A DNA stretch of 64,000 nt. Origin: Burkholderia sp. BCC0506 (lineage in GTDB: Bacteria; Pseudomonadota; Gammaproteobacteria; Burkholderiales; Burkholderiaceae). The position numbers and the translations under genes were made by a program. The DNA lies in contig NZ_CADFEN010000002.1 of the NCBI RefSeq assembly GCF_902833145.1, forward strand, positions 372,001 through 436,000, given 5' to 3'. Position 1 is the stretch's first letter, and each line of letters begins with the position of its first letter. The notes beneath the pieces are model-generated. The model did not search any database. It had not been told where the DNA came from and was given only the letters and a program-made list of their open reading frames with translations. Shown here piece after piece: positions 42,505 to 58,009 of this stretch.

Positions 42505-42520
42505 TGTTGCTTCCGCAACA
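42505..42520. promoter_or_regulatory. Activator site TGTTGC-N4-GCAACA (site 1)
   Basis: A perfect palindrome with TTCC as spacer, between the divergent sigma-54 promoters of the lipase and aldolase-like genes (about 110 nt and 90 nt away). Its position suits an upstream activator sequence for a sigma-54 activator. Confidence 0.7.
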
Positions 42521-42608: not shown

Positions 42609-42624
42609 TGGCACGATTGCTGCT
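42609..42624 (+). promoter_or_regulatory. Sigma-54 promoter of the aldolase-like gene
   Basis: TGGCACGATTGCTGCT fits the TGGCACG-N4-TTGCW consensus with GG and GC 10 nt apart. The start codon of the downstream gene is at 42703. Confidence 0.75.
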
Positions 42625-42702: not shown

Positions 42703-43383
42703 ATGTCCGTCACCCAAGCCATCGACAGCGGCGAACTCGTGGCCTTCGTCGAGCGCGCTACGCGCGAATTCGCGCAAGCCGCGCGCGTGCTGAAGGAAAC
42801 GCGCACGCTCAGCGCCACCAACACGTTCCAGGCATTCCAGCGCGTGCCGGGCACGGAGCTCGTCGTCGCGCTGTCGGCGCCCAGCCCGTGGGCCGCGTCG
42901 CAGGAGATCCAGCCGGTCGTCGTGACGCTCGACGGCGACGTGCTGCACGGCGACGCACGCGCCGGCGGCAACGGCCCGCGCTACGCAGGCGTATTCCGCG
43001 AGGCGCCGGAAGTCGACGTGGTGATTCATGTCCACGGCGCGTATCTCGGCGCATGGGCGAGCGCGCATCGTCCGCTGCCGATCCGTTACGCGCCAGCCGC
43101 GCGCTATACGCGGGCACGCGAAATCCCCGTCTACGTCGATCGCCGCCCCGGCGAGCCGCGCTTCATCGTCGACACGATCCGGCGCGATCCCGACGTACCG
43201 GCGATCATCGAGGCGAACGGCGGCGCGACGTTCTGGGGCAAGTCGATCCTCGACGTGTCGAAGTACATCCTGATCCTCGAGGAAGCCGCGTACTTCCAGG
43301 CGCTCGCGGAACCGCTCGGCGGCTCGCTCGAATTCGGGCCGGGCGCGCTCGAACAGCAATGGAAGATGACCGGTCTCGCATGA
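42703..43383 (+). CDS. Class II aldolase/adducin-like protein
   Basis: A 226-residue protein of the class II aldolase/adducin N-terminal family. Features are SATNTFQAFQRVPGTELVVA, DVVIHVHGAYLGAWA (HxH zinc ligands in the family) and a C-terminal LILEEAAYFQALA helix. Such proteins cleave or isomerise sugar-phosphate-like substrates with Zn2+; here the substrate is unknown. ATG 42703 follows CAAGGAAA. It lies downstream of a good sigma-54 promoter and upstream of the sigma-54 activator gene, so it belongs to the same regulon. Confidence 0.8.
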   Translation: MSVTQAIDSGELVAFVERATREFAQAARVLKETRTLSATNTFQAFQRVPGTELVVALSAPSPWAASQEIQPVVVTLDGDVLHGDARAGGNGPRYAGVFREAPEVDVVIHVHGAYLGAWASAHRPLPIRYAPAARYTRAREIPVYVDRRPGEPRFIVDTIRRDPDVPAIIEANGGATFWGKSILDVSKYILILEEAAYFQALAEPLGGSLEFGPGALEQQWKMTGLA

Positions 43384-44628: not shown

Positions 44629-45407
44629 TCGCGCCAGCGCAGCGCGCGCCGCGCGATCCGCTCGCATGACGCGCTCATGCCGACGGCCAGCGCCGTCACG
44701 CCCAGCACGCACACCAGCAGCACGTCGGCGCGCGCGCCGGCCTGCGCGTTCTGCATCAGACTACCGACGCCGGCGCCCGTGTTGAACAGCAACTCGCTGC
44801 TGGTCGCGGTGATCCACGCGAACGGCACGGCCTGCAGCACGCCCGCGAACAGGTCGGGCAACGCGCCGGGGATCAGCACGTCGCGCCACAGGCCGATGCG
44901 GGTCAGGCGATACGACTGCGCGAGCTCCACATAGCGCGGATCGACGCGGCGCAACCCGTCGAAGCTGGCGGTGGTCATCGGGTAGAACGCGGCCAGCGCG
45001 ATGGTGAACACCTTCGCGAATTCGCCGGTGCCGGCCCACAGGCTCAGCAGCGGAATCAGGCCGAGCAGCGGTACGTAGCGCAGCGCCTGGAACGCCGGCT
45101 CGCCGAGCTTGCGCGCGAGCGGCGAGCGCGCCATCGCCGCGCCGAACACGAGCCCGAACGCGACGCCGAAGCCGAGCCCGAGCGTCGTGCGGCGCAGGCT
45201 CGCGCCGAGATCGGTCGCGAGTTCGCCGCTGCGCGCAAGTTCGACGAGCGCGGCGCCGACCTGCTGCAGCGGCACGAACGCATATTGATGGGCTGCGTCG
45301 CCGGACGAGGCGGTTTGCCAGGCGGCCAGCAGCAGCGCCGGTACGACGAGGCCGCGCGCGCGGCGGCGCAGCGGGGCGAGCGAGGCAACGCGGGTAACGA
45401 AGGTCAT
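44619..45407 (-). CDS. ABC transporter permease (SsuC/TauC-like)
   Basis: A 262-residue inner-membrane permease with about six helices. The ABC contact loop is seen as ELAQSYRLTRIGLWRDVLIPGALPDLF near residue 175. The family is that of nitrate, sulfonate and taurine importers. Its 3' end overlaps the end of the convergent activator gene by 10 nt. It lies at the end of an operon that runs from a DszB-like gene (48459) through a solute-binding protein and another permease. ATG 45407 is inferred because an upstream frame extension is not conserved. Confidence 0.92.
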   Translation of the reverse strand: MTFVTRVASLAPLRRRARGLVVPALLLAAWQTASSGDAAHQYAFVPLQQVGAALVELARSGELATDLGASLRRTTLGLGFGVAFGLVFGAAMARSPLARKLGEPAFQALRYVPLLGLIPLLSLWAGTGEFAKVFTIALAAFYPMTTASFDGLRRVDPRYVELAQSYRLTRIGLWRDVLIPGALPDLFAGVLQAVPFAWITATSSELLFNTGAGVGSLMQNAQAGARADVLLVCVLGVTALAVGMSASCERIARRALRWRDHA

Positions 45408-45429
45408 GCCGAGGCGGTTCCGGTCAGGG

Positions 45430-46245
45430 TCAGCGCGCAGGCGTCTGCCAGCGCAACGCATAACGTTGGACGAGTGCGATCGAGCGGTCGAGCGCGAAGC
45501 CGATCAGCCCGATTACCGCGACGTCGACGAGCACCACGTCGAGCCGCAGCATCTGCCGGGCGAGTTCCATCATCTGGCCGATGCCGCTGTCCGCGCTGAG
45601 CAGCTCGACCGCGACGAGCGCGAGCCACGCACGCGCGAGCGCGATCCGCACGCCGGTGAGCAGCGGCGGCAGCGCGGCCGGCAGCAGTACGTCGCGCAGC
45701 AGCGCGAAGCGGCCGAGCCCGTAGTGGCGCGCCATCTCGACGAGATCGCGCGGCGCGTCGTGCACGCCCGTGTATGCGGCCAGTGCGACCGGGAAGAACA
45801 CGGCCTTGCCGACCACGACGAGCTTCAACGGTTCGTCGACGCCGATCAGCAGGATCAGCAGCGGAATCAATGTGAGCGTGGGCAATTGCCGCAACAGGTC
45901 GAAGGTCGGCCGCAGGTAGTCGGCGAACAGCCGGCTGCGTGCGAGCAGGATGCCGAATGCGGCGCCGCTGGTCGCGCCGATCGCGAACCCGAGCACGAGG
46001 CGGTGCAGCGTGATCGACAGGTTGTCGCGCAGTTCGCCGGTGTCGAGCAGCGTGCGCAGCGTCACCGCGAGGCGCTCGGGCGGCACGACGAGCTGCGGCG
46101 GAAACCAGCGCTGCGCGCTCGCGAGCCACCACAGCGCGGCGAACGCGACGGGCGTGATCCACCACAGCGCATGCTCGCCGAGCTGCGCGACGCTCGGCAC
46201 GCGAATCGCGCGCAAGCCGTTCGGCGCGAGGGCGCGGATCGCCAT
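45430..46245 (-). CDS. ABC transporter permease (SsuC/TauC-like)
   Basis: A 271-residue permease of the same family as its neighbour, with helices beginning at WWITPVAFAALWWLA and the EAA-like loop EMARHYGLGRFALLRDVLLPAALPPLL. The start ATG 46245 overlaps the stop of the solute-binding-protein gene by one base, so they are coupled. The two permeases probably form a heterodimer. The window has no ATP-binding subunit gene next to them. Confidence 0.92.
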   Translation of the reverse strand: MAIRALAPNGLRAIRVPSVAQLGEHALWWITPVAFAALWWLASAQRWFPPQLVVPPERLAVTLRTLLDTGELRDNLSITLHRLVLGFAIGATSGAAFGILLARSRLFADYLRPTFDLLRQLPTLTLIPLLILLIGVDEPLKLVVVGKAVFFPVALAAYTGVHDAPRDLVEMARHYGLGRFALLRDVLLPAALPPLLTGVRIALARAWLALVAVELLSADSGIGQMMELARQMLRLDVVLVDVAVIGLIGFALDRSIALVQRYALRWQTPAR

Positions 46246-47351
46246 CAGCGGCTCGCGACGCGCGGGGCGTCGGCGCGCCAGTAGCCGTCGAGGCCGAGCT
46301 GCTTGAGCGCGGTCGACACGAAGGTCGGCGCGAGCAGCGCGTTCACGTCGACCGGCGCGGACGTCAGCCCGGCCTGGCGGCTGTACGCGACGACATCGCG
46401 GTAATGGCCGGTCAACGCCGGCGTGAAGAGCGGCGTCCATTGCTCCTTCCACGGCGTCGCTTCGTCCGCGTATTCGCGGCGCACGACGCTTTCCGGCTGG
46501 CCGGACGCGCTCAGGATCTTCACGTACGCGTCGCGGTTCTGCGGCTGCGAGATCCAGTGCGCGGCCCGGACGTAGGCAGTCGCGACGATCTGCGTGATGT
46601 CGGGGTAGCGCCGCACGAAATCGTCGGATGCCCACAGTTCCGCGCGCATCTTCCAGTCGTCGGGCGCGCGCTTGGTCGACCAGATGATCTTGCCGACGTT
46701 CTTGTCGACGAGCGAATACGCGTCGGACAGCGTGAAGAAGCCGTCGACGCGGCCGGCCGCGACGGCTGCCGCGCCGGCCTGCGGATCGAGGTTGTAGATC
46801 CTGAAGTCGGACAGCTTCAGCCCGTTCTCGGCGAGCAGCTTGCTGAACGGCACTTCCCACGGCCGGCCGCGATTGAGGGCGATGCGCTTGCCCTTGAGGT
46901 CGACGATCGACTTCGCGCTCGAGCCGGCCGGCACGACCAGATAGGTATTGCTGCCGACGCCGCCCGGCACGATCAGGCGCGTATGCGTGCCCGACGCGTT
47001 GACGACCACCGACGGCAGGTCGCCGTAGCCGGCGAAATCGATGCTGCCGTTCGTGAATGCCTCGTTGACGAGCGTGCCGACCGCGGCGGTCGACACCGGC
47101 ACCCATTGCAGCGTCACGTGCCGCGCGGCGAGTGCTTTTTCGAGCGACTTGTCGGCGTCGATCAATGCGGAGGCGCCCGCGTATTGCGTCTTGCCGCCGC
47201 TCGAATACGCGACGACGGCGATCCGCACGACCTTGGGCGGGTCTTCCGCGTGCGCGGCAGGGGCGGTGAGCGATGCGGCGGCCAACGGCAGCGCGGCGAG
47301 CAGCGCGCGCAGCGGGCGGCGCAGCGAGGCAAGGCAGAGCGTGTGTTTCAT
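46245..47351 (-). CDS. ABC transporter solute-binding protein (SsuA/TauA family)
   Basis: A 368-residue periplasmic binding protein with a true signal peptide (about 1-35, ending PAAHA|E). Family signatures are VVRIAVVAYSSGGKTQYAG, LPSVVVNASGTHTRLIV, DLKGKRIALNRGRPWEV and a C-terminal ADEATPWKEQW. The substrate is likely a sulfonate or related anion; this follows from family and context. Unlike the three DszB-like proteins in the cluster, this one is clearly exported. It begins 31 nt after the stop of the upstream DszB-like gene. Confidence 0.92.
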   Translation of the reverse strand: MKHTLCLASLRRPLRALLAALPLAAASLTAPAAHAEDPPKVVRIAVVAYSSGGKTQYAGASALIDADKSLEKALAARHVTLQWVPVSTAAVGTLVNEAFTNGSIDFAGYGDLPSVVVNASGTHTRLIVPGGVGSNTYLVVPAGSSAKSIVDLKGKRIALNRGRPWEVPFSKLLAENGLKLSDFRIYNLDPQAGAAAVAAGRVDGFFTLSDAYSLVDKNVGKIIWSTKRAPDDWKMRAELWASDDFVRRYPDITQIVATAYVRAAHWISQPQNRDAYVKILSASGQPESVVRREYADEATPWKEQWTPLFTPALTGHYRDVVAYSRQAGLTSAPVDVNALLAPTFVSTALKQLGLDGYWRADAPRVASR

Positions 47352-47382
47352 GATGGTCCCGAACAGTGAACGGTAAAGGGGC

Positions 47383-48459
47383 TCACGCACGTTTTTGCAG
47401 CGAGGGCTGCAGCACGTCGGCGAGCGGGCGCGGATCGATCCAGTCGGCGACGTCGAAATCGGCTTCCAGAAAACCGTGGTCGTGCAGGAAGGTCTTGAAC
47501 TCGCCGAGCGCGGCGACCGATTCGTCGTCGAGATTGATGCCGAGATGCCGGTGCAACTGGTTGCCGTACGCGGCGCGCACCCAGTCGATCGACGACGCGG
47601 TTTCGCCGGCCACGTAGTGCGCGGTTTCGTCGGGATGCGTGCCGGCCCATTCGCCGGCGGCGACCACGAGTTTGAGGAAGCCGGCGACGATGTCGGGATG
47701 GTTCGCGAGCACGTCCGCGTTGACGGTCAGCGGTCGCGGCGTGCCGTTGTTGTTGCGGATCGAGCGCTCCGGATGAAAGCCGATGTCGATCACGACGTGC
47801 GCGCCGATCAGTTGCGCGATTTCGAGGCCCGTCGAACCCTTCACGTAGATCGCGTCGACTTCGCCGCGCAGCAGCGCGCCGGCTTCGGCCGCATACAGCG
47901 CGCGGCTCGAAAAGCCGTGCGGCGACGCGAACAGGTTCGCCGCCCGCGCCGGCCCGACGGCTTGCAGCGTGCGGGCGCGCACGTCGACGCGTTCGACGTC
48001 GCCGAGCGTCAGCCCGTCGAGGCTCAGTGCGTTGACGAAGCCGCGCAGCGCCGATGCGCGAAAGATGTCGATGCGATCGTCGGGGCGGCTCGGAATCGCG
48101 ATCCGGCGCCCGCGCAACGCCTTCACGGACCGGATGCCCGACTCGGGGCGCGCGAGAATCAACTGCGACTCGTCGACCCACGACAGCCCGATCACGCGCG
48201 TATGCGCGTCGTTCGAGCGCGCCCACATCGCGGGGATGCTGCCGCCCTGGCGAAACGATTGCGCGAGCGTGTGATCGCTGATCGACGACACGTCGTGCCG
48301 CGTGGCGCCGCGCGGCGAGCGGATCGCGACGCCGTCGGCCGAGGTCTCGCCGTTGAGCCAGCCGAGGTGCACGGCGATGCCGAGCGGCGTCGGCACCGGC
48401 GATCGGGCGTACCAGAACGTCTGCTGCTTGTCCGATGACGAATCGGGCCTGTCTGTCAT
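47383..48459 (-). CDS. DszB-like protein lacking catalytic Cys and His
   Basis: A 358-residue cytosolic protein related to DszB (2'-hydroxybiphenyl-2-sulfinate desulfinase), a member of the periplasmic-binding-protein fold. There is no signal peptide. Aligned by the CPVP region, the catalytic Cys is Ser20 here (YARSPVPT), the position of the catalytic His (DszB His60) is Ile60, and only the Arg equivalent to DszB Arg70 is kept (SFRQGGSIP). It should not cleave sulfinates as DszB does; it may bind the substrate or regulate. It is the first gene of the ABC operon, 70 nt downstream of a minus-strand sigma-54 promoter. Confidence 0.8.
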   Translation of the reverse strand: MTDRPDSSSDKQQTFWYARSPVPTPLGIAVHLGWLNGETSADGVAIRSPRGATRHDVSSISDHTLAQSFRQGGSIPAMWARSNDAHTRVIGLSWVDESQLILARPESGIRSVKALRGRRIAIPSRPDDRIDIFRASALRGFVNALSLDGLTLGDVERVDVRARTLQAVGPARAANLFASPHGFSSRALYAAEAGALLRGEVDAIYVKGSTGLEIAQLIGAHVVIDIGFHPERSIRNNNGTPRPLTVNADVLANHPDIVAGFLKLVVAAGEWAGTHPDETAHYVAGETASSIDWVRAAYGNQLHRHLGINLDDESVAALGEFKTFLHDHGFLEADFDVADWIDPRPLADVLQPSLQKRA

Positions 48460-48527
48460 GTGTGAGATTCCCCTGTCTGGGTAAGCGTGGTCGAGGCGCG
48501 GTGTCGCCCGCGCGGGCCGTTCCACGT

Positions 48528-48543
48528 TGCAAGTTCCGGGCCA
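48528..48543 (-). promoter_or_regulatory. Sigma-54 promoter of the DszB-like/ABC operon
   Basis: The minus-strand sequence TGGCCCGGAACTTGCA has GG and GC 10 nt apart and the TTGCA box of the consensus. It lies 70 nt upstream of the start at 48459. Confidence 0.75.
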
Positions 48544-48620
48544 CAGTGAACGGCAACCGCCGTGCGGCCGCTGCCGCGGGCCGCGCGGGCGATGCGCGGC
48601 ATGGCGGCAGTCCCCTGCGT

Positions 48621-48636
48621 TGTTGCGTGAGCAACA
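48621..48636. promoter_or_regulatory. Activator site TGTTGC-N4-GCAACA (site 2)
   Basis: A perfect palindrome with spacer GTGA in the shared control region of the two divergent operons. Confidence 0.75.
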
Positions 48637-48650
48637 GTCGCATCGGGCGC

Positions 48651-48666
48651 TGTTGCGCGCGCAGCA
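48651..48666. promoter_or_regulatory. Activator site TGTTGC-N4-GCAGCA (site 3)
   Basis: One change from the perfect palindrome (GCAGCA for GCAACA) with spacer GCGC. Its centre is 30 nt from that of site 2, about three helical turns, so both would face the same side of DNA. Confidence 0.65.
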
Positions 48667-48815
48667 CCGGTGCGGCGGATGCAGCAGCGGCGCGTGTGCG
48701 TGTCGCGACGGGTTCGGCGGCAATCGGCGCACGTGATTCGACCGCCGCCTACGCCCGGCCCGCAAGGCGCAGCGCGCGTTCATCGGCGCCGCCGCGCGCG
48801 GCGCGGCGAGCCCGT

Positions 48816-48831
48816 TGGCACACCGCGTGCT
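48816..48831 (+). promoter_or_regulatory. Sigma-54 promoter of the monooxygenase operon
   Basis: TGGCACACCGCGTGCT has GG and GC spaced by 10 nt. The downstream start codon is at 48902. Confidence 0.7.
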
Positions 48832-48901
48832 TTACAGCGCTGCACACGCGCGGCACGCCGGTGCCGCACGCAATCCGAACGGGCCGACAAGGAGAATCCC
48901 G

Positions 48902-50074
48902 ATGGCTGTTGAATTTCTGTGGCGCCTGCCGATGCACGGCGACGGCCGGCGCGCACACGATCTGCATACGCGCGGCGAATGGAATCGCCAGCGCGCGTCG
49001 CGCGTCGCGCCGAAAGTCGACGACGACGCGTTCGGCTACATCGACTATCTGTCGCAGGTCGCGCGTGCGGCCGACATCGCCGGTTTCCACGGCGCGCTGA
49101 TTCCGATCTTCCGTTTCACCGAGGAGCCGTGGGTCGTGGCGGCCGCGCTGGCGCGCGAGACGCGCCGGTTGCGCTTGCTGATCGCGCTGCAGCCGCATTT
49201 CGTGCATCCGGTCTATGCGGCGCAAATGGCCGCGAGCCTGCAGCGGATCAGCCGCGGCCGCGTCGAGTGGAACGTCGTCACGGGTGGCGGCGGCCCTGAC
49301 CAGCGCGCGTACGGCGATTTCATCGATCACGACAGCCGCTATGCGCGCACCGACGAATTCCTCGACGTCGTGAAAGGCGTCGCAGCCGGCGCGCCGTTCA
49401 CGTTCGACGGCCGCTTCTATCGCGTCGAGGAGGGCGGCCTGCTGCCGCCGCTGAGCGGCCAGAAACCGCCGCGGATCTATCTGGCCGGCGCGAGCGACGC
49501 GGCGCTCGCGGTCGCCGCGAAGCACGGCGACGTGCACCTGAGCTGGGGCGAGCCGCTCGCGAAGCAGAAGGAAGTGATCGATGCGGCCCGTCGCGCGCTC
49601 GACCGGCAGAACGCCGAGCGCGACCTGCGCTTCGGCATGCGCATCGACATCCTGGCGCGCGAGACCGAGGAGCAGGCGTGGGCCGAGCTGCGGCAGATGT
49701 TCGCGACGGTGGGCGACACGACGCGCAACGGATTCGGCGGGCGCGGCGAAGCGTCGGAGTCGGTCGGCGCGAAACGCCAGTTCGCCTTGCACCAGGGCAA
49801 CACGCAACACTTCGACGACCTGATCGTCGGCCCGAACCTGTGGGCCGGGATGTCGCAGATTCGCGGCGGCCCCGGCTGCGTGATCGTCGGCAGCCACGAG
49901 CAGGTGGCCGAGCGGCTCGCGGAGTACGTCGAGATCGGCGTGTCGACGTTCATCCTCGCGAGCAACCCGCATCTCGAAGAAGCGTACCGCGTGGGCGAGG
50001 AAGTGCTGCCGCTCGTCGACGGCGCGCTGAACGCGCGCGGCACGCAGGCGGCGCTGCCCGTGGCCGGCGCCTGA
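48902..50074 (+). CDS. Flavin-dependent (FMNH2) monooxygenase, SsuD/SfnG-like
   Basis: A 390-residue LLM-class (bacterial-luciferase-like) monooxygenase of the alkanesulfonate/sulfone group. The start is VEFLWRLPMHGDGR, followed by the TIM-barrel landmarks LLIALQPHFVHP, SRGRVEWNVVTGGGGPDQ, YLAGASDAALAVAAKHGD and LRFGMRIDILARETEEQAW. SsuD, which releases sulfite from alkanesulfonates, is the closest known pattern; SfnG cleaves dimethylsulfone in the same class. It needs FMNH2 from a separate reductase; none is next to it. Ribosome site AAGGAGA 10 nt upstream of ATG 48902. It heads the plus-strand operon under a sigma-54 promoter. Confidence 0.92.
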   Translation: MAVEFLWRLPMHGDGRRAHDLHTRGEWNRQRASRVAPKVDDDAFGYIDYLSQVARAADIAGFHGALIPIFRFTEEPWVVAAALARETRRLRLLIALQPHFVHPVYAAQMAASLQRISRGRVEWNVVTGGGGPDQRAYGDFIDHDSRYARTDEFLDVVKGVAAGAPFTFDGRFYRVEEGGLLPPLSGQKPPRIYLAGASDAALAVAAKHGDVHLSWGEPLAKQKEVIDAARRALDRQNAERDLRFGMRIDILARETEEQAWAELRQMFATVGDTTRNGFGGRGEASESVGAKRQFALHQGNTQHFDDLIVGPNLWAGMSQIRGGPGCVIVGSHEQVAERLAEYVEIGVSTFILASNPHLEEAYRVGEEVLPLVDGALNARGTQAALPVAGA

Positions 50075-50124
50075 GCGCGGCGGCCCGCCGCCACGCACCC
50101 ATGACAACGACAAGGACACTCACC

Positions 50125-51171
50125 ATGACGACACTCGCTGCGCAGGCCACGGCTTGCGACGCACTCTGGTACACGCGCTGCCCGGTGCCGACCGCGCTCG
50201 GCATCGCCGTGCATCGCGGCTGGTTCGACGAGGAGTTCGGGCCGGACGGCATCGCACTCCATTCGCTGCAGGAGACGGCCGACGCCGACAAGCGCGAATC
50301 GCACTTCGATCACAGCCTGCGGCACTCGTTCCGGCAGGGCGGCAACATTCCCGCGCTGTGGGCGCGGGCCCGCGGCGCCGATACGCGCGTGATCGGCCTG
50401 TCGTGGACCAACGAATTCCAGGCGATCGTCACGCTGCCCGAGCGCGACATCCGCACCGCGCGCGACCTGCGCGGCCGGCGGCTCGGCTTGCCGCGCCATC
50501 CGATCAGCATCGACTTCTGGCGCGCGGCCGCGCTGAAGGGGTTCCTGAGCGCACTCGAACTGGAAGGGCTCGGCCACGGCGACGCCGAATGGGTCGACCT
50601 GCCCGACACGCGCGAGCGCCACACCGGGCCCGCGTCGTTCACGCGCGGCCCGCACGAATACGGGCTCGAAATCGCGGCGCTCGTGCGCGGCGACGTCGAT
50701 GCGGTGTTCGTGAAGGGCGTGGCCGGGCTGGAAACCGTGCATCTGATCGACGCGCAGATCGTCATCGATCTCGGCGCGCATCCCGATCCGCTGGTGCGGA
50801 TCGGCAACGGCACGCCGCGCACGCTGACCGTCGATCGCGCGCTGATCGACGCGCGCCCCGATCTCGTGAGCCGCTTCCTGTCGGTCGTGGTCGGCGCGGG
50901 TGACTGGGCCGCGCGCCATCCGGCGGAGACGGTCGCCTATATCGGCCGCGAAACGCGTGCATCCGACGAGTGGGTGCGCTACGCGTATGGCGCGGACGTG
51001 CATCGCCATCTCGAGACCGGGCTCGCGCCGACGTCGATCGACGGGCTGGTCGCGTTCAAGGATTTTCTCGTCGAGTGGGGCTTTCTCGAACACGATTTCG
51101 ACGCGCGCGCGTGGATCGATCCGGCGCCGTTCACGCAGATCGACCGGCACCGCCATGCGTGGGTCGCGTAG
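50125..51171 (+). CDS. DszB-like putative sulfinate desulfinase (paralogue 1)
   Basis: A 348-residue cytosolic protein without signal peptide. It matches DszB in the N-terminal half: YTRCPVPTALGIAV (Cys19 aligned with DszB Cys27), SHFDHSLRHSFRQGGNIP (His60 and Arg70, spaced exactly 10 as in DszB), and LRGRRLGLPRHP. It continues with DVDAVFVKGVAGLETVHL and FLSVVVGAGDWAARH. DszB cleaves an aryl sulfinate to phenol and sulfite; the substrate here is unknown. Automated annotation often calls such proteins substrate-binding proteins because of the fold. It follows the monooxygenase gene by 50 nt; ATG 50125 is favoured by AAGGAC upstream. Confidence 0.85.
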   Translation: MTTLAAQATACDALWYTRCPVPTALGIAVHRGWFDEEFGPDGIALHSLQETADADKRESHFDHSLRHSFRQGGNIPALWARARGADTRVIGLSWTNEFQAIVTLPERDIRTARDLRGRRLGLPRHPISIDFWRAAALKGFLSALELEGLGHGDAEWVDLPDTRERHTGPASFTRGPHEYGLEIAALVRGDVDAVFVKGVAGLETVHLIDAQIVIDLGAHPDPLVRIGNGTPRTLTVDRALIDARPDLVSRFLSVVVGAGDWAARHPAETVAYIGRETRASDEWVRYAYGADVHRHLETGLAPTSIDGLVAFKDFLVEWGFLEHDFDARAWIDPAPFTQIDRHRHAWVA

Positions 51172-51204
51172 CACGCCGCGGCGTGTCATTGCAAGGAGTC
51201 GAAC

Positions 51205-52017
51205 ATGACAGGGCTGACGATCGAATACGGCGTGCCGCCCGCACGCCGGCATGCGGCGCGTGCCGCGCCGCGCACGGTGAGCGTGACGGCGGCGACCCGG
51301 GCGCGACCGCCGTCGGTCGTACCGTCCGCGCAGGCGGACACGCGACCGGCGCAGGCGAGCGGATGGCGCGGCGCGGCCGCGATCGCGCTGGCTGTCGCGG
51401 CACTGCATGCGGGCGTTGCGCTGCTGACCGCGCGCGTGCCTGCCGCACCGCCCGCGCAGCCGCCCCGGCCGTTGCCGATGACGGTCGAATTGACGCGGCC
51501 GCCCGAACCGCTGCCGCAGGCCGCGCATCCGCCGCCGCCGGTCGTGCCGCCGAAGCCGTTGAAGCAGGCGCCGACCCCGCCGAAGCCGCGCGCGGCCGTA
51601 CCGCGTCCGGCGCTGGCGGCCACGCCGCAGGCGACGCGCGAAGCCGCACCTGCACCCGTGACGGCGACGCCGGCCGTCGCCGCGCCCGCTGCCCCGATTC
51701 AGGCGCCTGCGCCCGCACCCGCCGTACCCGTGCGCGAAACCGCGCCGATCGGCGACGCGGCGTACCTGCGCAACCCGGTGCCCGACTATCCGGCGTTCGC
51801 GCAGGACCAGGGCTGGGAAGGGCGCGTCGTGCTGCGCGTGCACGTGCTCGCGAACGGCACGCCCGATTCGGTCGAGGTCCGCACGAGCAGCGGCCGCCGC
51901 CTGCTCGACAGCGCGGCGGTGGCCGCCGTGAAGCGCTGGACCTTCGTGCCCGCGAAGCGCGGCGACGAAGCGGTCGACGGCTGGGTCAACGTGCCGATCG
52001 ATTTCAAGCTGGGCTGA
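51205..52017 (+). CDS. TonB energy-transducing protein
   Basis: A 270-residue TonB. A membrane anchor (about 54-75, GAAAIALAVAALHAGVALL) is preceded by an unusually long basic N-terminal cytosolic part. The Pro/Ala/Lys-rich periplasmic spacer (PPPPVVPPKPLKQAPTPPKP) follows, and the C-terminal TonB domain contains NPVPDYPAFAQDQGWEGRVVLRVHVL and SSGRRLLDSAAVAAVKRWTF. Ribosome site AAGGAG. It joins with ExbB and ExbD, encoded directly after it, to energise the TonB-dependent receptor at 55.7 kb. It lies inside the monooxygenase operon. Confidence 0.93.
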   Translation: MTGLTIEYGVPPARRHAARAAPRTVSVTAATRARPPSVVPSAQADTRPAQASGWRGAAAIALAVAALHAGVALLTARVPAAPPAQPPRPLPMTVELTRPPEPLPQAAHPPPPVVPPKPLKQAPTPPKPRAAVPRPALAATPQATREAAPAPVTATPAVAAPAAPIQAPAPAPAVPVRETAPIGDAAYLRNPVPDYPAFAQDQGWEGRVVLRVHVLANGTPDSVEVRTSSGRRLLDSAAVAAVKRWTFVPAKRGDEAVDGWVNVPIDFKLG

Positions 52018-52057
52018 CCCGCCGGGCCGCCCGCACATTTTTCAAGGAACTCACATC

Positions 52058-52774
52058 ATGAACGCTATCCCGACTACCTTCATCGTCCAGGGCGCGCTCT
52101 GGCTGCTCGTCGTCTTCTCCGTCGTCACATGGACGCTGATCGTCGTGAAGGCGATCCAGAGCCTGCGTTCGAGCGCGCGCAACCGGCGCTACGTCAGCGC
52201 ATTCTGGGCCGCGAACAGTTTCCACGACGCGGCCGCGCTCGACGGCGCGAACAGCCCGGTGGGCGAACTCGCCGCGACGGGCTTCGACGCATTGCGACGC
52301 GCCGACGAGAGCAGCGCGCACGATCTCGAACACAGTTGGAGCCGTCACGACCTGCTCGAACGCCATCTGCGCCAGCAGATCCACAACGCGCGCCGGCGCG
52401 AGGAAGCGGGGCTCGCGGTGCTCGCGTCGATCGGCAGCACCGCGCCGTTCGTCGGGCTGTTCGGTACGGTGTTCGGCATCATCCATGCGCTGACCGCGAT
52501 CACGCACAGCGCGTCGGCGAGCATCGACGTCGTGGCCGGTCCGATCGGCGAGGCGCTGGTCGCGACCGGGATCGGCATCGCGGTCGCGGTGCCGGCCGTG
52601 CTCGCGTACAACTTCTTCGTGCGCCGCGTGAAGGCTGCGTCGGCCGATCTCGACGCGTTCGCGACCGACTTCGTCACGCTCGCGCAGAAGGCCGGCTTCC
52701 GCGTGCCGGCCGCCGCGCCCGCGGCCGCCCCGGCGCGCCGTTCCGACGACACCCGCCAGGAGGCGTTCGCATAA
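52058..52774 (+). CDS. exbB: ExbB proton-channel subunit (MotA/TolQ/ExbB family)
   Basis: A 238-residue inner-membrane protein. The first helix is FIVQGALWLLVVFSVVTW, and the pore helices follow LASIGSTAPFVGLFGTVFGI and GEALVATGIGIAVAVPAVLAYNFF. The invariant polar residues of the ExbB pore are in the GTVFGI segment. The long cytoplasmic loop (about 40-125) is helical. It assembles with ExbD to convert the proton gradient to work on TonB. Its stop overlaps the exbD start by one base. Confidence 0.94.
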   Translation: MNAIPTTFIVQGALWLLVVFSVVTWTLIVVKAIQSLRSSARNRRYVSAFWAANSFHDAAALDGANSPVGELAATGFDALRRADESSAHDLEHSWSRHDLLERHLRQQIHNARRREEAGLAVLASIGSTAPFVGLFGTVFGIIHALTAITHSASASIDVVAGPIGEALVATGIGIAVAVPAVLAYNFFVRRVKAASADLDAFATDFVTLAQKAGFRVPAAAPAAAPARRSDDTRQEAFA

Positions 52775-53184
52775 TGGCCTTCTCGTCCTCCTCCGACAAC
52801 GACGACGTGCTCAGCGAAATCAACATCACGCCGCTCGTCGACGTGATGCTCGTGCTGCTGGTCGCGTTCATCGTCACCGCGCCGCTGCTGAACAACGCGG
52901 TGCACGTGAATCTGCCGAACACCGTCGCCACCGCGCCGGCCGACCGCAAGCCGAACGTCACCGTGAGCGTCGACGGCAAGGGCGTCGTGTATCTCGACAA
53001 GCGCGCGGTCGCGCTCGACACGGTGCCGGCCGAGCTGGCCGCGCTGAAGGCCGGCCGGCCCGACGTCGCGCTCGACCTGCAGGCCGACGAGCACGTGCCG
53101 TACGGCACCGTCGCGAAGCTGATGGCGGCGATCGAGCACGCGGGCATCACGCGACTGTCGGTGCTCACCGCGCCGCGCGGCTGA
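52774..53184 (+). CDS. exbD: ExbD proton-channel subunit
   Basis: A 136-residue ExbD/TolR protein. The single transmembrane helix has the essential Asp in INITPLVDVMLVLLVAFI (about residue 25). The periplasmic domain contains VTVSVDGKGVVYLDK and ALDLQADEHVPYGTVAKLM, both conserved in the family. Start ATG 52774 shares one base with the exbB stop (TAATG). It completes the TonB-ExbB-ExbD set encoded in the operon. Confidence 0.94.
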   Translation: MAFSSSSDNDDVLSEINITPLVDVMLVLLVAFIVTAPLLNNAVHVNLPNTVATAPADRKPNVTVSVDGKGVVYLDKRAVALDTVPAELAALKAGRPDVALDLQADEHVPYGTVAKLMAAIEHAGITRLSVLTAPRG

Positions 53185-53219
53185 CGCGCCCTTCACGACT
53201 CCTTTCTGCGAACGCATTC

Positions 53220-54284
53220 ATGAGCACCACGGCTTCACACAACGTCCAGTCGATCTGGTACACGCGCTGTCCGGTGCCGACACCGCTCGGTATCGCCGCG
53301 CATCTCGGCTGGCTGGATCACGAATTCGCCGGCGACGGCATCACCGTGCGCGCGCTGCAGGAAAGCCAGCACGCGGCACTGCATCACGCGCACGTCGACC
53401 ATTCGCTCGACAACGCGTTCCGCCAGGGCGGCAGCATTCCGGCGCTGTGGGCACGCGCGTCCGGTGCCGACACGCGCGTGATCGCGCTGACCTGGGTCGA
53501 CGAGGCGCAGGCGATCGTCGCGTTGCCGGAAGCCGGCCTCGCGCGACCGAAGGATCTGCGCGGGCGCCGCATCGGCCTGCCGCGCCGCGACGGCGAGCGG
53601 ATCGACATCTTCCGCGCGGCGGCACTGCGCGGCTTCGTGAGCGCGCTGTCGCTCGACGGGCTTGGCCCCGGCGACGTCGAATGGGTCGACGTACCGGCAT
53701 CGAACCTGCGCGCGCCGGTGGCGACGCCCGCGACTCGCGACGCGGCGTTCAGTCATCCGGCGAGCCTGTCGAGCCGGCGGCTCTATGCGGCCGAGGCGGC
53801 CGCGCTGGTGCGCGGCGACGTCGACGCGATCTACGTGAAGGGTTCGCTCGGGCTCGAAACCGCGCACCTGATCGGCGCGCAGCCGGTGGTCGACATCGGC
53901 TTTCATCCCGATCCGCAGATCCGCATCAACAACGGCTCGCCGCGCCCGCTGACCGTCAATGCGTCGACGCTGGAGCGCCACCCCGATATCGTCAGCCGCT
54001 TTCTCGCGCGCGTGACCGACGTCGAAGGGTGGGCGCGCGAGCACGAGCACGAAGTGCTCGGCTATCTCGGCCGCGAGACGGGCTCGGGCCACGACTGGCT
54101 GCGGCTCGCATACGGCGCGGACGTCCACCGGCGGCTGCGCACGGATCTCGACGAAGCGTCGATCGCCGCGCTCGACGATTTCAAGCGCTTCCTGGTCGAC
54201 TGGCGGTTCCTGCCCGCCGACTTCGACGTGCGCGCATGGATCGACCGGCGCGCGCTCGACGGCATCGCGACGCTGTCGCGGTGA
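53220..54284 (+). CDS. DszB-like putative sulfinate desulfinase (paralogue 2)
   Basis: A 354-residue cytosolic protein, close to paralogue 1. It keeps the DszB catalytic set: Cys17 in YTRCPVPTPLGIAA, His58 and Arg68 in HVDHSLDNAFRQGGSIP (10 residues apart as in DszB), and LRGRRIGLPRRDG. The middle has DVDAIYVKGSLGLETAHL. No signal peptide or membrane segment is present. It follows exbD by 35 nt, and its stop overlaps the MFS start (GTGA), so it is translated with the transporter. The presence of two full-set paralogues in one operon suggests two substrates or two steps. Confidence 0.85.
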   Translation: MSTTASHNVQSIWYTRCPVPTPLGIAAHLGWLDHEFAGDGITVRALQESQHAALHHAHVDHSLDNAFRQGGSIPALWARASGADTRVIALTWVDEAQAIVALPEAGLARPKDLRGRRIGLPRRDGERIDIFRAAALRGFVSALSLDGLGPGDVEWVDVPASNLRAPVATPATRDAAFSHPASLSSRRLYAAEAAALVRGDVDAIYVKGSLGLETAHLIGAQPVVDIGFHPDPQIRINNGSPRPLTVNASTLERHPDIVSRFLARVTDVEGWAREHEHEVLGYLGRETGSGHDWLRLAYGADVHRRLRTDLDEASIAALDDFKRFLVDWRFLPADFDVRAWIDRRALDGIATLSR

Positions 54285-55498
54285 GCACGCCGGCACGCGT
54301 CGCCGACGCATGGCGGCGCGAGCGCTTTACCGGCGGCTTCATGCTGCTCGCGCTCGCGAGCGGCACGACGATCAGCATGGCGCAGCTCGCGACGACGCTG
54401 TATGCGCTGGCGCTCGGCGTCGACGACGCACGGCTCGGCATCATCGCCGCGATGGAGCCGCTCGGCATCGCGCTGATGACATTGCCGGCCGGGCTGCTGG
54501 TCGCGCGCTACGGTGCACGGCGCGTGTACTTCGCCGCGAGCATGGGGCCGATGCTGCTCAATCTCGTCGTGCCGTTCACCGGCGCATGGCCGCTGATCGC
54601 ACTCACGCAGGGGCTGATCGGGCTGTGCATCCCGTTCCGGATCGTGTCGATCAACGGCGTGTTTCTCGCGCGGCTCGCGCAGATCGGCCTCGCCCGCGCG
54701 GGCTGGTATCGCGCGGCGATGTCGGTCGGAACGGGGATGGCCGGGCCGTGGCTGGCGAGCTGGCTGATCGGCACGCACGGTGCGGCCGCGACGTTCTGCG
54801 CGGCATCGGCGAGTTTCGCGGGCATGGCGCTGTTCAGCCGCGTGTTGCTCGGCGAGGCGGCACCACCGTCGCGCGGCGCGTCACGTCGAACCGGCGGCCT
54901 GCGCGCGCTGTTCGCGCTCGCGTGGAGCCGCGACATCCGCGAGCAGCTCGTCGTGGAAGCGGTGAACAGCGCGACGCGCGCGCTCGTCGGCACCTATACG
55001 GTGGTGCTCGCGATCCAGTCGCTCGGCCTCACGCAGACGCGTGCCGTCGCACTGCTGACGTTGCAGGGCGCGGTCGCGGTGATCGCGCTGTTCGGGCTCG
55101 GGCACGTCGCGCAGCGAATGACGGAACGCCGTTGCCATGCACTGAGCGTCGCGGGCGGCGTGACCGGGCTGCTCGCGCTCGGCCTCGGGCGCGATGCTTG
55201 GATCGTCGGCGCGGGGCTCGCCGCGCTGTGCGCCGGCTCGTCGCTGCTGCATCTCGTCAACATGCAGCATCTCGGCCGTCATCCGGCCGACAAGAGCCAG
55301 GTATCGAGCCTCTACAACCTCGCGTCGATGACCGGCGCGTTCTGCGGCCCGCTGGTCGGCAGCGCGCTCGCGCCGCTCGTCGGGTTGCGGGCCGTGTTTC
55401 TGTGCTGGCTGCCGGTCGTCGTGCTGGTCGCGCTCGCGCTGCGGCTCGCACACGGGCGTCGCGGCGCGACGCAAGCGCTGCCTGCGAAGCCATCCTGA
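54281..55498 (+). CDS. MFS transporter
   Basis: A 405-residue major facilitator protein with about 12 hydrophobic helices (for example FMLLALASGTTISMAQLATT, GIALMTLPAGLLVARYGARR with the MFS loop motif, and FCGPLVGSALAPLVGL). GTG 54281 overlaps the stop of the DszB-like gene by 4 nt and is the only start compatible with the homology. It could import the organosulfur substrate or export a product. No drug-resistance signature is evident. It is the last gene of the operon that starts at 48902. Confidence 0.88.
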   Translation: MSTPARVADAWRRERFTGGFMLLALASGTTISMAQLATTLYALALGVDDARLGIIAAMEPLGIALMTLPAGLLVARYGARRVYFAASMGPMLLNLVVPFTGAWPLIALTQGLIGLCIPFRIVSINGVFLARLAQIGLARAGWYRAAMSVGTGMAGPWLASWLIGTHGAAATFCAASASFAGMALFSRVLLGEAAPPSRGASRRTGGLRALFALAWSRDIREQLVVEAVNSATRALVGTYTVVLAIQSLGLTQTRAVALLTLQGAVAVIALFGLGHVAQRMTERRCHALSVAGGVTGLLALGLGRDAWIVGAGLAALCAGSSLLHLVNMQHLGRHPADKSQVSSLYNLASMTGAFCGPLVGSALAPLVGLRAVFLCWLPVVVLVALALRLAHGRRGATQALPAKPS

Positions 55499-55517
55499 CG
55501 AATTCGGCATCGTGCGG

Positions 55518-55533
55518 TGTTGCGTGACCAGCA
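55518..55533. promoter_or_regulatory. Activator site, degenerate (site 4)
   Basis: TGTTGC-GTGA-CCAGCA matches site 2 at 14 of 16 positions, with the left arm and spacer identical. It lies about 85 nt upstream of the sigma-54 promoter of the receptor gene. Confidence 0.6.
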
Positions 55534-55616: not shown

Positions 55617-55632
55617 TGGCATCCGAATTGCA
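55617..55632 (+). promoter_or_regulatory. Sigma-54 promoter of the TonB-dependent receptor gene
   Basis: TGGCATCCGAATTGCA has GG and GC 10 nt apart and a perfect TTGCA box. The receptor start codon is at 55694. Confidence 0.78.
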
Positions 55633-55693: not shown

Positions 55694-58009
55694 ATGTTCA
55701 GGAAAAAACTAATCGTCACCGCGCTGGGGGGACTGCTGACGGGCGGCGCCGTATCGTTGCCCGCATGGGCAGAAGATGGCGCGGCGACGGCGGGGGCGCC
55801 GGACGCGAAGCCGGCGCAACAGGCATCGGACGACGCGGCCGCGGCCGCACCGAAGGCGGTGCGTGCGAACCGCGGCACGGCGGTACGCGAAACGAATCTC
55901 GGCACGGTGACCGTGACGGCGCGCCGGCGCAAGGAACGCATCCAGGACGTGCCGGTCGCGGTCAGCGCGCTGAGCGGCGATGCGATCAAGAACAACGAGC
56001 TGCGCGTGATCAACGACGTGACGAAGTACGTGCCGAACTTCACCGGACAATCGACCGAGGGCCGCGAGCGGCCGCGCTGGTTCCTGCGCGGCGTCGGCAG
56101 CAACGATCCGTCGGACCTGTCGCTGAGCCCGATCGGCGTGTACTTCGACGACGTGTACATCAACAGCGTGTTCGGGCAGGGCTTTCCGCTGTTCGACCTC
56201 GACCACATCGAAGTGCTGCGCGGGCCGCAGGGCACGCTGTGGGGCAAGAATACGGTCGGCGGCGCGCTCAACATCACGTCCCAGAAGCCGACGTTCGACG
56301 TGAGCGGTTACGGCAAGCTCGGCTTCGGTCAGTACAACAGCCGGCTCGCGGAAGCGGCGATCGGCGGGCCGATCGGCAAGAACGACGTGCTGGCCGCGCG
56401 CGTGTCGGTGTATCACGAGAATGCCGACAGCTTCTACACGAACACGGTGCAGCAGGGGCGCTTCGGCGGCTTCCACGACAACGCGGTGCGCTTCCAGGTG
56501 CTCGCCGTGCCCACGGCGGACACCGATTTCCTGTTCAACATCCATGGCCGCAACTACACGGGCGGCGGCAACGCATGGCACGCGGAAGGTGCGGGGCGCG
56601 GTGGCACGAACCAGTTCGGCTTCGTCGGGTCGAGCGATCCGTATACGGTGTCGCTCAATGCGCCGTCGAGCGATCACATCTCGACGTGGGGCACGTCGCT
56701 GACTGCGCACTGGCGCATCAACCCGGCGGTGTCGCTGACGTCGATCACCGCGTTCGAAGGGCTGCACCGCTGGTACCAGGACGACGAGGACTATTCGCCG
56801 GTCGATGCGGCGCGCTCGCACGATCGCCTGTCGAGCCGGCAGTTTTCGCAGGAATTCCGGCTCGAATCGCCGCAGAACGACCGGCTGAGCTGGATCGTCG
56901 GCACGCACCTGTTCACCGAGCAACTGGCCGAGCAGGGCGCCGGCGGCGGGCTGCCGGGCTCGCCGTCGCCCGCGTACTACCATCTGACCGATCTCACGCA
57001 GCACACGCAGAGCGCGGCAATCTTCGGCAGCGTCAAGTACCGCTTCACCGACCGCTTCAACGTGACGGGCGGGCTGCGTTACACGATCGAGCGCAAGACC
57101 ATCAACCTGACCGGGCTGCAGGATACCGGCAACGTGACGTTCAGCGATCCGAACAGCTGGTGGTCGCCGTCGTCGGTGTCGTCGCCGCTCGCGGTCAGCG
57201 CGCGGCAGAACCAGGCCAACACCTGGCGCGCGCCGACCTGGGACCTCACGCCCGAATATGCGCTCAGCAGCAATGTGCGCGCGTATTTCCGCTATGCGCG
57301 CGGCTTCCGTTCGGGCGGCTACAACGGCAACGCCTATACGCAGAGCACGGTGTCGACCGTGTCGCCGGAGTACCTGACCGATTACGAGGTCGGCATCAAG
57401 AGCGAGTGGTTCGACAAGCGGCTGATCGTCAACGCGAGCGTGTTCCACTACGACTATCGCGACATCCAGGTGTTCGCGCTGGCGCCGAACCCGTTCGGCG
57501 GGCCGCCGGTGTCGACGCTGTCGAATGCCGGGCAGGGGCGCGCGGACGGTTTCGAGCTGGAGCTGAAGGCGCAGCCGGTCAACAGCCTGTACCTGTTCGC
57601 GAACCTCGGGATGCTGAACACGCGCTACACGGAATTCCGCAACGTGCCGACGGCCGTTGGCAACTCGTTCGCGCGTTCGCCGCATACGACGCTGAACGCG
57701 GGCTTCGACTATCGCGTGCCGGTGTCGTTCGGCACGCTGACGGCGGGCGGCGACGTGAACTACCGCAGCCGCGAGTACTTCAGCGCGACGCGGCAGACGA
57801 TGCCGCAGCTCTGGCAGGGCGGCTATACGGTGCTGAACGCGCATGTGTCGTACACGACGCCGAACCAGAAGTACATCGTGACCGGCTACGTGACGAACCT
57901 GACGAACAAGGTCTACAAGAAACTCGAGTTGTTGCCGTCGTATGGCGCGTATCCGGTGCTGTATGGCGATCCGCGCACGGTCGGGATCACGCTGACCGCG
58001 AAGATCTGA
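55694..58009 (+). CDS. TonB-dependent outer-membrane receptor
   Basis: A 771-residue outer-membrane receptor. Signal peptide at about 1-26 (ending AWAE), then a long Ala-rich linker with the TonB box LGTVTVTARRR (about 74-84). The plug domain follows (IQDVPVAVSALSG, RGVGSNDPS, VLRGPQGTLWGKNTVGGALN), then a 22-strand barrel. The C-terminus ends GITLTAKI with no terminal aromatic, which differs from most barrels. The pattern is of the broad group that imports organic ligands rather than ferric siderophores; the substrate is probably an organosulfur compound given its sigma-54 promoter and neighbours. Start ATG 55694 is placed by the signal peptide; an earlier open frame has no homology. Confidence 0.92.
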   Translation: MFRKKLIVTALGGLLTGGAVSLPAWAEDGAATAGAPDAKPAQQASDDAAAAAPKAVRANRGTAVRETNLGTVTVTARRRKERIQDVPVAVSALSGDAIKNNELRVINDVTKYVPNFTGQSTEGRERPRWFLRGVGSNDPSDLSLSPIGVYFDDVYINSVFGQGFPLFDLDHIEVLRGPQGTLWGKNTVGGALNITSQKPTFDVSGYGKLGFGQYNSRLAEAAIGGPIGKNDVLAARVSVYHENADSFYTNTVQQGRFGGFHDNAVRFQVLAVPTADTDFLFNIHGRNYTGGGNAWHAEGAGRGGTNQFGFVGSSDPYTVSLNAPSSDHISTWGTSLTAHWRINPAVSLTSITAFEGLHRWYQDDEDYSPVDAARSHDRLSSRQFSQEFRLESPQNDRLSWIVGTHLFTEQLAEQGAGGGLPGSPSPAYYHLTDLTQHTQSAAIFGSVKYRFTDRFNVTGGLRYTIERKTINLTGLQDTGNVTFSDPNSWWSPSSVSSPLAVSARQNQANTWRAPTWDLTPEYALSSNVRAYFRYARGFRSGGYNGNAYTQSTVSTVSPEYLTDYEVGIKSEWFDKRLIVNASVFHYDYRDIQVFALAPNPFGGPPVSTLSNAGQGRADGFELELKAQPVNSLYLFANLGMLNTRYTEFRNVPTAVGNSFARSPHTTLNAGFDYRVPVSFGTLTAGGDVNYRSREYFSATRQTMPQLWQGGYTVLNAHVSYTTPNQKYIVTGYVTNLTNKVYKKLELLPSYGAYPVLYGDPRTVGITLTAKI

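Follow-up and report, generated by a model that had tools for sequence, protein, structure and literature searches.

Are three Burkholderia proteins whose fold suggests substrate-binding components of a transporter in fact enzymes that strip sulfinate groups from organic sulfur compounds? This question is posed by a gene cluster (positions 42505–58009) of Burkholderia sp. BCC0506, which lies on a stretch of 64,000 nt (contig NZ_CADFEN010000002.1, forward-strand positions 372,001 to 436,000) termed the window in the following and providing the numbering of its coordinates. A preliminary description made from the sequence had noticed three open reading frames related to the desulfinase DszB of the Rhodococcus 4S pathway. 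All three were recovered, with the addition that the one at 47383–48459 lies on the minus strand, and they are referred to as P1, P2 and P3 (see table). As argued below from sequence comparisons, P1 and P2 are very probably desulfinases of the DszB/BdsA type.

To our knowledge, and in line with PMC6100217, desulfinases that work without pyridoxal phosphate are few, essentially DszB and related enzymes of fuel biodesulfurization. In the literature accessible to us, which includes papers on Polaromonas plasmids and on sigma-54 regulons and mostly leaves subscription journals aside, no DszB-type desulfinase of Burkholderia was found; in the available parts of two papers mentioning Burkholderia, the word desulfinase denotes cysteine sulfinate desulfinase.

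Relationship of P1, P2 and P3 to DszB

P1, P2 and P3 share 46–56% sequence identity among themselves, and the best match of each in the PDB is DszB (2de2/2de3), with E values of 2e-16 for P2, 2.4e-12 for P1 and 8.4e-11 for P3. A profile built from 23 family members detects DszB with 134 bits (E 4.6e-38), compared with 24 bits for SsuA and 21 bits for a nitrate-binding protein; no PDB entry other than DszB is a clear relative. Such genes are named substrate-binding protein because Pfam offers only NMT1 (PF09084) and NCBIfam a sub-cut-off match to SsuA_fam (TIGR01728; 71–83 bits for P1–P3 versus a cut-off of 163.5). To the solute-binding protein (SBP) encoded in their own cluster, P1–P3 are 16–18% identical. 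In a maximum-likelihood tree, DszB (2 rows) and 94 DszB-like rows are split from 17 SBP rows with a support of 99 in the Shimodaira–Hasegawa-like approximate likelihood ratio test (SH-aLRT), so that the phylogeny proposed as a check in the preliminary description groups the three proteins with DszB and not inside the SBPs. This tree of 113 rows was obtained by a short search with SH-aLRT as its only support measure, carries a long-branch warning for the SBPs and the Sphingobium rows, and is midpoint-rooted for drawing only. Its SBPs are those of the fetched loci; SsuA and the nitrate-binding protein were compared by profile search, and TauA stands in neither comparison. Left out were L064 (split frame), L067–L069 (the window again), L076 and the weak SBP row L062.

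The catalytic residues of DszB, Cys27, His60 and Arg70, align with C19/H60/R70 in P1, C17/H58/R68 in P2 and S20/I60/R70 in P3, and the distance of 10 residues between His and Arg is the same in P1, P2 and DszB. The residues read in the preliminary description, including the Ser and Ile of P3 beside a retained Arg, agree with this alignment, which contains 103 family and 18 SBP rows. Among the 97 family rows kept for the residue tally after dropping L067–L069 and L076, 84 (both DszB rows counted in) carry the full triad, which is retained from Actinomycetota to Pseudomonadota; these rows are not independent since many are close kin, but the agreement is no product of chance. The other 13 comprise ten with Ser/Ile/Arg, i.e. 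the P3 proteins of Burkholderia and Paraburkholderia including that of the window, one with Ser/His/Arg (L018), one with Cys/Asp/Arg (L075, 5432–6523) and the broken frame of L064. The latter, at 9998–11051 of the Prescottella defluvii chromosomal locus, is a DszB-like gene spread over two frames, reflecting either a real frameshift or a sequencing error. In the 18 SBP rows, which include one protein twice, not one of the three residues is in place. The Gly-Gly pair following Arg (Gly72-Gly73 in DszB) is found in 96 of the 97 family rows, P1 and P2 included. Thr takes the place of Ser25 of DszB, and in most members His that of Tyr63; Trp155, which we take to be a pocket-lining residue, is not retained in a part of the alignment that is gappy. 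According to the available part of PMC6100217, the C27S variant of DszB is inactive and Cys27 is held to be the proton donor to the ring carbon, while a dyad of H60 and S25 keeps the thiolate stable and the sulfinate is contacted by H60, R70 and G73.

The preliminary description had also reported a signal peptide for the SBP at 46245–47351 and none for P1–P3. The N-terminal hydrophobicity points the same way: the best 12-residue Kyte-Doolittle mean within the first 45 residues amounts to 1.0–1.3 for P1–P3 and to 2.1 for the neighbouring SBP, on a crude measure that considers hydrophobicity alone and by which the DszB of pMyong1 scores 1.8. Moreover, a Trp-Tyr of the conserved core already occupies residues 13–17 of P1–P3 and therefore leaves no space for an export signal ahead of it. 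P1–P3 are predicted to be cytosolic proteins with N termini unlike signal peptides. At the level of sequence, the earlier view of cytosolic DszB-type desulfinases plus a relative with degenerate catalytic residues, in place of SBPs, holds.

The partner monooxygenase and related desulfurization systems

The gene between those of P3 and P1 (48902–50074) encodes a luciferase-like monooxygenase, taken to be dependent on FMNH2 and the only one found in the cluster, where the second enzyme at the BdsB position is missing. It had been described as SsuD/SfnG-type; the nearest relatives are indeed MsuD (268 bits) and SsuD (245 bits), but the SfnG part of the label does not stand (108 bits), and DszA is more distant still (50 bits). 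The curated SsuD equivalog model gives 312–315 bits, below its cut-off of 518, and a canonical SsuD encoded elsewhere in the genome scores 626 bits. In a tree of 56 rows, for which a selection of the loci was used and which was calculated by a quick search and accompanied by long-branch warnings, the window enzyme falls into a clade supported at 99 and separate from canonical SsuD/MsuD, the sampled members of which all derive from clusters with DszB-like genes; rhizobial monooxygenases beside DszB-like genes belong to DszA-like or other groups. At the positions of the SsuD residues C54, R78, R226, H228, R297 and Y331, the window enzyme has T, Q, R, D, R and N, respectively, and all 12 actinobacterial enzymes sampled from the BdsC position have the same six letters; the enzyme of Sphingomonas L016 differs at one of these sites and that of Pseudoduganella L017 at four. 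The counterparts of R226 and R297 in MsuD lie in the sulfonate site and that of R78 near the flavin (available part of PMC8234197; numbering mapped in the present analysis). An arginine pair kept in altered surroundings is therefore a hint, not proof, of another substrate.

With both sulfonate arginines of MsuD in place, the monooxygenase, whose nearest PDB chains are MsuD and SsuD, may itself release sulfite from a sulfonate, and the desulfinases would then mop up sulfinate side products. In L037 and L090, moreover, the monooxygenase neighbouring the DszB-like gene groups with canonical SsuD/MsuD, an exception to a simple rule, and H228D alone says little, as mutation of the SsuD counterpart had little effect (PMC8234197, as far as available). 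However, four of the six positions are changed (C54T, R78Q, H228D, Y331N) in the same way throughout the actinobacterial sample, the genome already has its canonical SsuD, and the enzyme is inherited together with the desulfinases. We consider the sulfonate alternative unlikely.

This co-inheritance emerges from a survey of 150 genomes, consisting of that of the window and its relatives: an orthologue of the monooxygenase (E≤1e-120) occurs in 21 of them, all within the 25 that contain the DszB-like family (E≤1e-20), and in none of the 125 others, the 21 co-occurrences not being independent events because the genomes are related. Twenty of the 23 genus genomes with the family have three matches, one has two and two have one; one of the twenty, G031 (1100 contigs), has a third match of a different type, and P1 was not observed in it. 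The window's genome itself contains, besides P1–P3, two weak partial matches (39 and 27 bits) that align as ordinary SBPs. In a draw across the class, 5 of 369 genomes, the window's own included, carry the family at E≤1e-30, and four genomes of this wider search gave no match to the window-type monooxygenase at E≤1e-40. At the same threshold, L112–L115 (from G298, G504 and G447) present DszB-like genes without this monooxygenase. One scan of genome contigs provided 66 DszB-like loci from Burkholderia, Paraburkholderia, sphingomonads, Pseudoduganella, rhizobia, Rhodococcus, Nocardia, Gordonia, Amycolatopsis and others. Of 57 loci (the 66 minus L064 and loci shorter than 15 kb), 55 have a luciferase-like monooxygenase gene no more than 5 kb away from a DszB-like gene, and the other two, L015 and L016, have one at 6.3 and 6.0 kb; 97 such genes were counted in 624 kb near DszB-like genes versus 8 in 562 kb far from them.

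P1 and P2 share with the Rhodococcus 4S enzyme DszB homology over the full length, the Cys27/His60/Arg70 set, Gly72-Gly73, the missing signal peptide and the company of flavin monooxygenases. A full 4S operon is ruled out, as the cluster lacks DszA and DszC (neither is the best reference match of any window open reading frame); in further contrast to that system it has an SsuD-like partner, three paralogues, TonB genes and control sites of sigma-54-like sequence. A further parallel exists in Gordonia terrae C-6, where the genes GTC6_01585–01620 code for an SBP, a hypothetical protein, an SsuD-like protein, a monooxygenase, a desulfinase, an ATPase, a permease and a second SBP; benzothiophene raises all eight 29- to 54-fold in RT-qPCR, and extracts of E. 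coli with bdsABC form o-hydroxystyrene from benzothiophene in the presence of FMN, NADH and flavin reductase (available part of PMC3868597). The Gordonia locus L045 shows this order over eight genes in reverse, from an SBP (7211–8278) through permease, ATPase, DszB-like protein, two luciferase-like monooxygenases and a frame of no family to a second SBP (14146–15120); L059 also has two SBPs and a permease, and L054 and L056 are resolved in part. The DszB-like protein of L045 is 37–40% identical to P1–P3, and its monooxygenase carries the T,Q,R,D,R,N signature. The window thus contains the desulfinase and the same-clade BdsC-position monooxygenase of a bdsABC-type module, BdsC being defined by gene order alone; unlike bdsABC it has no second monooxygenase at the BdsB position and adds TonB, receptor and sigma-54 activator genes. 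For Rhodococcus qingshengii IGTS8, PMC8557817 (available part) lists a chromosomal 'SsuA/DszB' (IGTS8_peg4802), situated among Ssu proteins, as upregulated with dibenzothiophene, and the loci L049–L053 and L057 of Rhodococcus correspond to the layout of its region as far as resolved.

In L116 and L117 (from the genus), L118 (two copies), L119 (from the family) and rhizobia, DszB-like genes stand beside DszA-like and/or acyl-CoA-dehydrogenase-like flavin enzymes, in several loci also Opp-type transporters. Named after best reference matches of often 25–30% identity, these loci appear to come near to a full 4S-type set. In Ensifer (L073, 7714–15180) and on pSymA of S. meliloti (L074), two DszB-like genes accompany an acyl-CoA-dehydrogenase-like enzyme and an NtaA/DmoA monooxygenase, possibly also a 4S-type set. 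The available part of PMC3868597 refers to a Sinorhizobium, KT55, that desulfurizes benzothiophene. A dszABC-like operon (L072, 437–4118) with transposase genes downstream is present on a plasmid of Mycobacterium intracellulare subsp. yongonense, its DszB being 66% identical to the solved one.

Several findings weigh against the role of P1 and P2 as desulfinases and the pathway proposed below. In the tree, DszB is sister to the P1–P3 family and stands outside it, and the identity of P1–P3 to DszB is only 25–29%, with Thr for Ser25 and His for Tyr63. An identification of BdsA via its published cloning primers failed, as no fetched locus matches them (at least 7 mismatches everywhere for the forward primer; for the reverse primer at least 6 in the Gordonia loci and 4 at best elsewhere), and the BdsA link therefore rests on gene order only; the available part of PMC3868597 contains no assay of BdsA alone. 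The cluster further lacks a DszC/BdsB-type enzyme for the first oxidations, and no open reading frame of the window matched SsuB as ATPase for the SBP and the two permeases (44619–47351), nor was an SsuB-type ATPase matched at ≥55% identity in L001–L014 or L076.

The low identity, the lost Trp155 and the mostly replaced Tyr63 would also fit a Cys-dependent reaction of P1 and P2 on another group, such as a cyclic sulfinate ester, a thiosulfonate or some other C–X protonolysis. However, H60, R70 and the following GG, among them sulfinate contacts of DszB, belong to the best conserved positions, the partner is a sulfur-type monooxygenase, and the Gordonia genes are arranged as in an operon for benzothiophene desulfurization, so that we give this variant little credence. 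It is equally doubtful that P1–P3 have no enzymatic activity and serve in the cytoplasm for binding or sensing, or as SBPs that have no leader, and whose Cys/His/Arg would have been inherited with DszB and reused. This would accord with their NMT1/SsuA fold family, with the fact that, of 40 rows listed, the 6 with an annotation under the match all bear the name ABC transporter substrate-binding protein (the other 34 being unannotated there), and with the persistence of P3 and one Sphingobium paralogue without the full triad; against it stand the breadth of the triad in the family, the flavin monooxygenase association, a signal-bearing SBP alongside and DszB as the only clear PDB relative. Although P1–P3 share the fold family of SsuA, TauA and NrtA (PF09084; TIGR01728 below cut-off), they differ from these SBPs in lacking a signal-like N terminus and in lying outside the SBP group of the tree, and P1 and P2 in carrying the triad. 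A substrate-binding protein identity for P1–P3 was rejected on the evidence of tree, profile, N terminus and residues.

Gene layout, putative sigma-54 control sites and the paralogue P3

Table 1. Features of the cluster (positions in the window)
Feature	Position	Strand	Basis or remark
Enhancer-like palindrome TGTTGCTTCCGCAACA, perfect form	42505..42520	.	about 100 bp upstream of -24/-12 site
-24/-12 site TGGCACGATTGCTGCT, aldolase-like/regulator operon	42609..42624	+	1 mismatch to consensus; pair also in L014, L076
Class II aldolase/adducin-like protein	42703..43383	+	PF00596; homologues in L014, L076
Sigma-54 activator	43504..44628	+	PF00158
ABC permease 2	44619..45461	-	PF00528
ABC permease 1	45430..46242	-	PF00528
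Periplasmic SBP, signal-peptide-like N terminus, without C/H/R	46245..47351	-	hydrophobicity, alignment
P3, degenerate DszB paralogue (S20, I60, R70; Ala at Ser25 position)	47383..48459	-	alignment
-24/-12 site TGGCCCGGAACTTGCA, P3-SBP-permease operon	48528..48543	-	aligned in 10/10 loci
Enhancer-like palindrome TGTTGCGTGAGCAACA, common to divergent operons	48621..48636	.	pattern match
Second enhancer-like palindrome TGTTGCGCGCGCAGCA, 30 bp on	48651..48666	.	pattern match
-24/-12 site TGGCACACCGCGTGCT, monooxygenase operon	48816..48831	+	pattern match
Luciferase-like monooxygenase with T,Q,R,D,R,N signature, from the clade linked to desulfinases	48902..50074	+	tree, residues
P1, DszB/BdsA-type desulfinase by sequence, full C19/H60/R70	50125..51171	+	alignment, tree, profile
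TonB	51205..52017	+	PF03544
ExbB	52058..52774	+	PF01618
ExbD	52771..53184	+	PF02472
P2, DszB/BdsA-type desulfinase by sequence, full C17/H58/R68	53220..54284	+	alignment, tree, profile
MFS transporter	54281..55498	+	PF07690; absent in Paraburkholderia L011-L013 and L014
Enhancer-like site TGTTGCGTGACCAGCA, one mismatch	55518..55533	.	pattern match
-24/-12 site TGGCATCCGAATTGCA ahead of receptor gene	55617..55632	+	pattern match
TonB-dependent outer-membrane receptor	55694..58009	+	family scan of frame 55517-58009

The intergenic region between P3 and the monooxygenase contains divergent -24/-12 sites (48528, minus; 48816, plus) flanking two palindromes of the form TGTTGCN4GCARCA (48621 and 48651), and an alignment of 10 loci from Burkholderia and Paraburkholderia, one of them the window, shows all four sites in every locus. 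The pattern occurs at 7 places of the 7.29 Mb genome, three of them within the cluster, and the perfect form TGTTGCN4GCAACA at two, both in the cluster (42505, 48621). Four of the five single-mismatch -24/-12 matches in the window precede transcription units of the cluster (42609, 48528, 48816, 55617). With up to one mismatch, 8 enhancer strand matches were counted in the window versus 0.63 expected, a value reached in none of 100 shuffles, with the reservation that the pattern was read off this region before being counted in it; seven of the eight lie in the cluster and one at 27749, and perfect palindromes are counted twice. Two further counts are unfavourable: across the genome, 9 strand matches to the enhancer pattern compare with 7 to the reversed control, so that its clustering and not its total number is telling, and when up to 2 mismatches are allowed, the sigma-54 consensus shows no excess in the window (18 versus 22 expected), the window-wide count being uninformative by itself. 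Paired -24/-12 sites and palindromes recur in relatives from Burkholderia and Paraburkholderia; neither was found in Sphingomonas L015 and L016, and in Sphingobium L075 one -24/-12 site and no palindrome. As far as can be judged from these sites, the cluster resembles a sigma-54 regulon of its own, a new observation.

The likely activator (43504–44628) consists of an AAA+ domain without a sensor domain recognised by Pfam, has homologues of 82–98% identity in L001, L004, L006–L008, L011–L014 and L076, and shares 51% identity with the L075 regulator. We infer that it binds and activates at the cluster enhancers. Its layout is, we presume, like that of SfnR. In Pseudomonas putida, SfnR controls the sfnFG dimethyl sulfone system. 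The resemblance lies in a sigma-54 activator encoded with sulfone-related monooxygenase genes, the likeness to SfnR not deriving from a sequence comparison; differences are the monooxygenase, which is not SfnG-like, and the presence of desulfinases. An SfnG-type dimethyl sulfone pathway as direct parallel is ruled out by the scores for SfnG and MsuD given above.

The gene set is conserved to varying extents. L014 contains the regulator, the aldolase-like protein, both permeases, the SBP, P3, the monooxygenase, P1 and the receptor; its fetched stretch has no P2, TonB, ExbB, ExbD or major facilitator superfamily (MFS) gene, a 57% match to P2 being one of its other two copies, and the MFS gene is also missing in Paraburkholderia L011–L013. 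The Sphingobium locus L075 carries its own set of three DszB-like genes, which are separate from P1–P3 in the tree, together with a similar regulator, an Ssu transporter and an aldolase-like protein 42% identical to that of the window. Both aldolase-like proteins contain the motif EANGGA, with Gly in place of His at what we take to be the third zinc-ligand position; the window protein (42703–43383) is perhaps not an aldolase. On the L075 plasmid of Sphingobium TomTYG65 (5471–12314), one DszB paralogue with Asp for His60 lies directly beside the gene of a sigma-54 activator. Near the cluster, a reading frame judged by eye to be GroEL-like occupies 38949–40589 on the minus strand. The window further contains an open frame of 3127 residues on the plus strand (17444–26827).

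P3 lacks the catalytic Cys and His (Ser20, Ile60) and has Ala at the Ser25 position, and no turnover is therefore expected although the Arg is kept; because the catalytic residues were looked for and are absent, it is left out of the desulfinase class. Its ratio of non-synonymous to synonymous substitution rates (dN/dS, Nei-Gojobori) is 0.12–0.21 with five relatives, compared with 0.09–0.16 for P1 (five) and 0.08–0.17 for P2 (four), and the 10 P3 sequences that were inspected, among them that of the window, all share S/I/R; on these grounds a decaying pseudogene was rejected. A retained pseudoenzyme under purifying selection is the best reading of these data, likely with a non-catalytic role as sensor, carrier or partner. 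The divergent DszB-like gene, P3 by position, adjoins the monooxygenase gene in 21 of the 21 genomes having the latter, as judged from coordinates, and is present even where P2 is missing (L014). One speculative and rather improbable possibility is that P3 serves as a cytosolic sensor which reports the substrate or free sulfinate to the sensor-less activator, or gates the step of P1, P2 and the monooxygenase. It would explain the conserved divergent position of P3 beside the monooxygenase, also without P2, as well as the separately derived His-less paralogue beside the regulator gene in Sphingobium L075.

Proposed pathway and its implications

Retaining the assignment of P1 and P2 as DszB/BdsA-type desulfinases, we propose as the best explanation a scenario in which a sulfone is converted via a sulfinate to sulfite under sigma-54 control; we hold it to be likely as a whole, its weakest link being the substrate. 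A bulky, probably aromatic, oxidised sulfur compound would be imported by the TonB-driven receptor and the ABC-type permease system. The monooxygenase would then break the C–S bond of the sulfone, or of a cyclic sulfinate ester, leaving a sulfinate, from which P1 and P2 would strip the sulfinate group in the cytosol by delivering the Cys proton to a ring or vinyl carbon, with the His steadying the thiolate and the Arg and the GG loop holding the sulfinate. The SO2 or sulfite released would enter assimilation. P3, without the Cys, the His and the dyad Ser/Thr but with the Arg, may bind and is not expected to turn over. Of the starting compounds named in the preliminary description, sulfone or sulfonate, the sulfone is chemically sensible, as is a cyclic sulfinate ester; the conversion of a sulfonate to a sulfinate is a reduction and is therefore not expected of such a monooxygenase. 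The mechanism of DszB, with protonation of an aromatic carbon (PMC6100217, available part), argues against small alkyl sulfinates as substrates. The comparisons show the homology, the residues, N termini unlike signal peptides, the co-inheritance, the purifying selection and the conservation of sequences resembling promoters and enhancers; desulfinase activity, substrate class, import route, the pairing of activator and enhancers and the role of P3 are what we infer from them. The cluster probably helps the bacterium to live when sulfate is scarce.

The DszB-like family is much wider than fuel biodesulfurization would suggest, extending over Burkholderia, Paraburkholderia, rhizobia, sphingomonads and actinobacteria, and includes members that are annotated as transport proteins and so missed by metabolic reconstruction. 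The activity of the desulfinase step has been described as too low for industry (available part of PMC6100217). If the proposal is true, the family would provide new desulfinases for that step and a Gram-negative route to scavenge aromatic sulfones, the Cys-to-Ser paralogues would offer a natural test of the Cys-proton mechanism, and the six-residue signature of the monooxygenase would be a marker for finding further such pathways.

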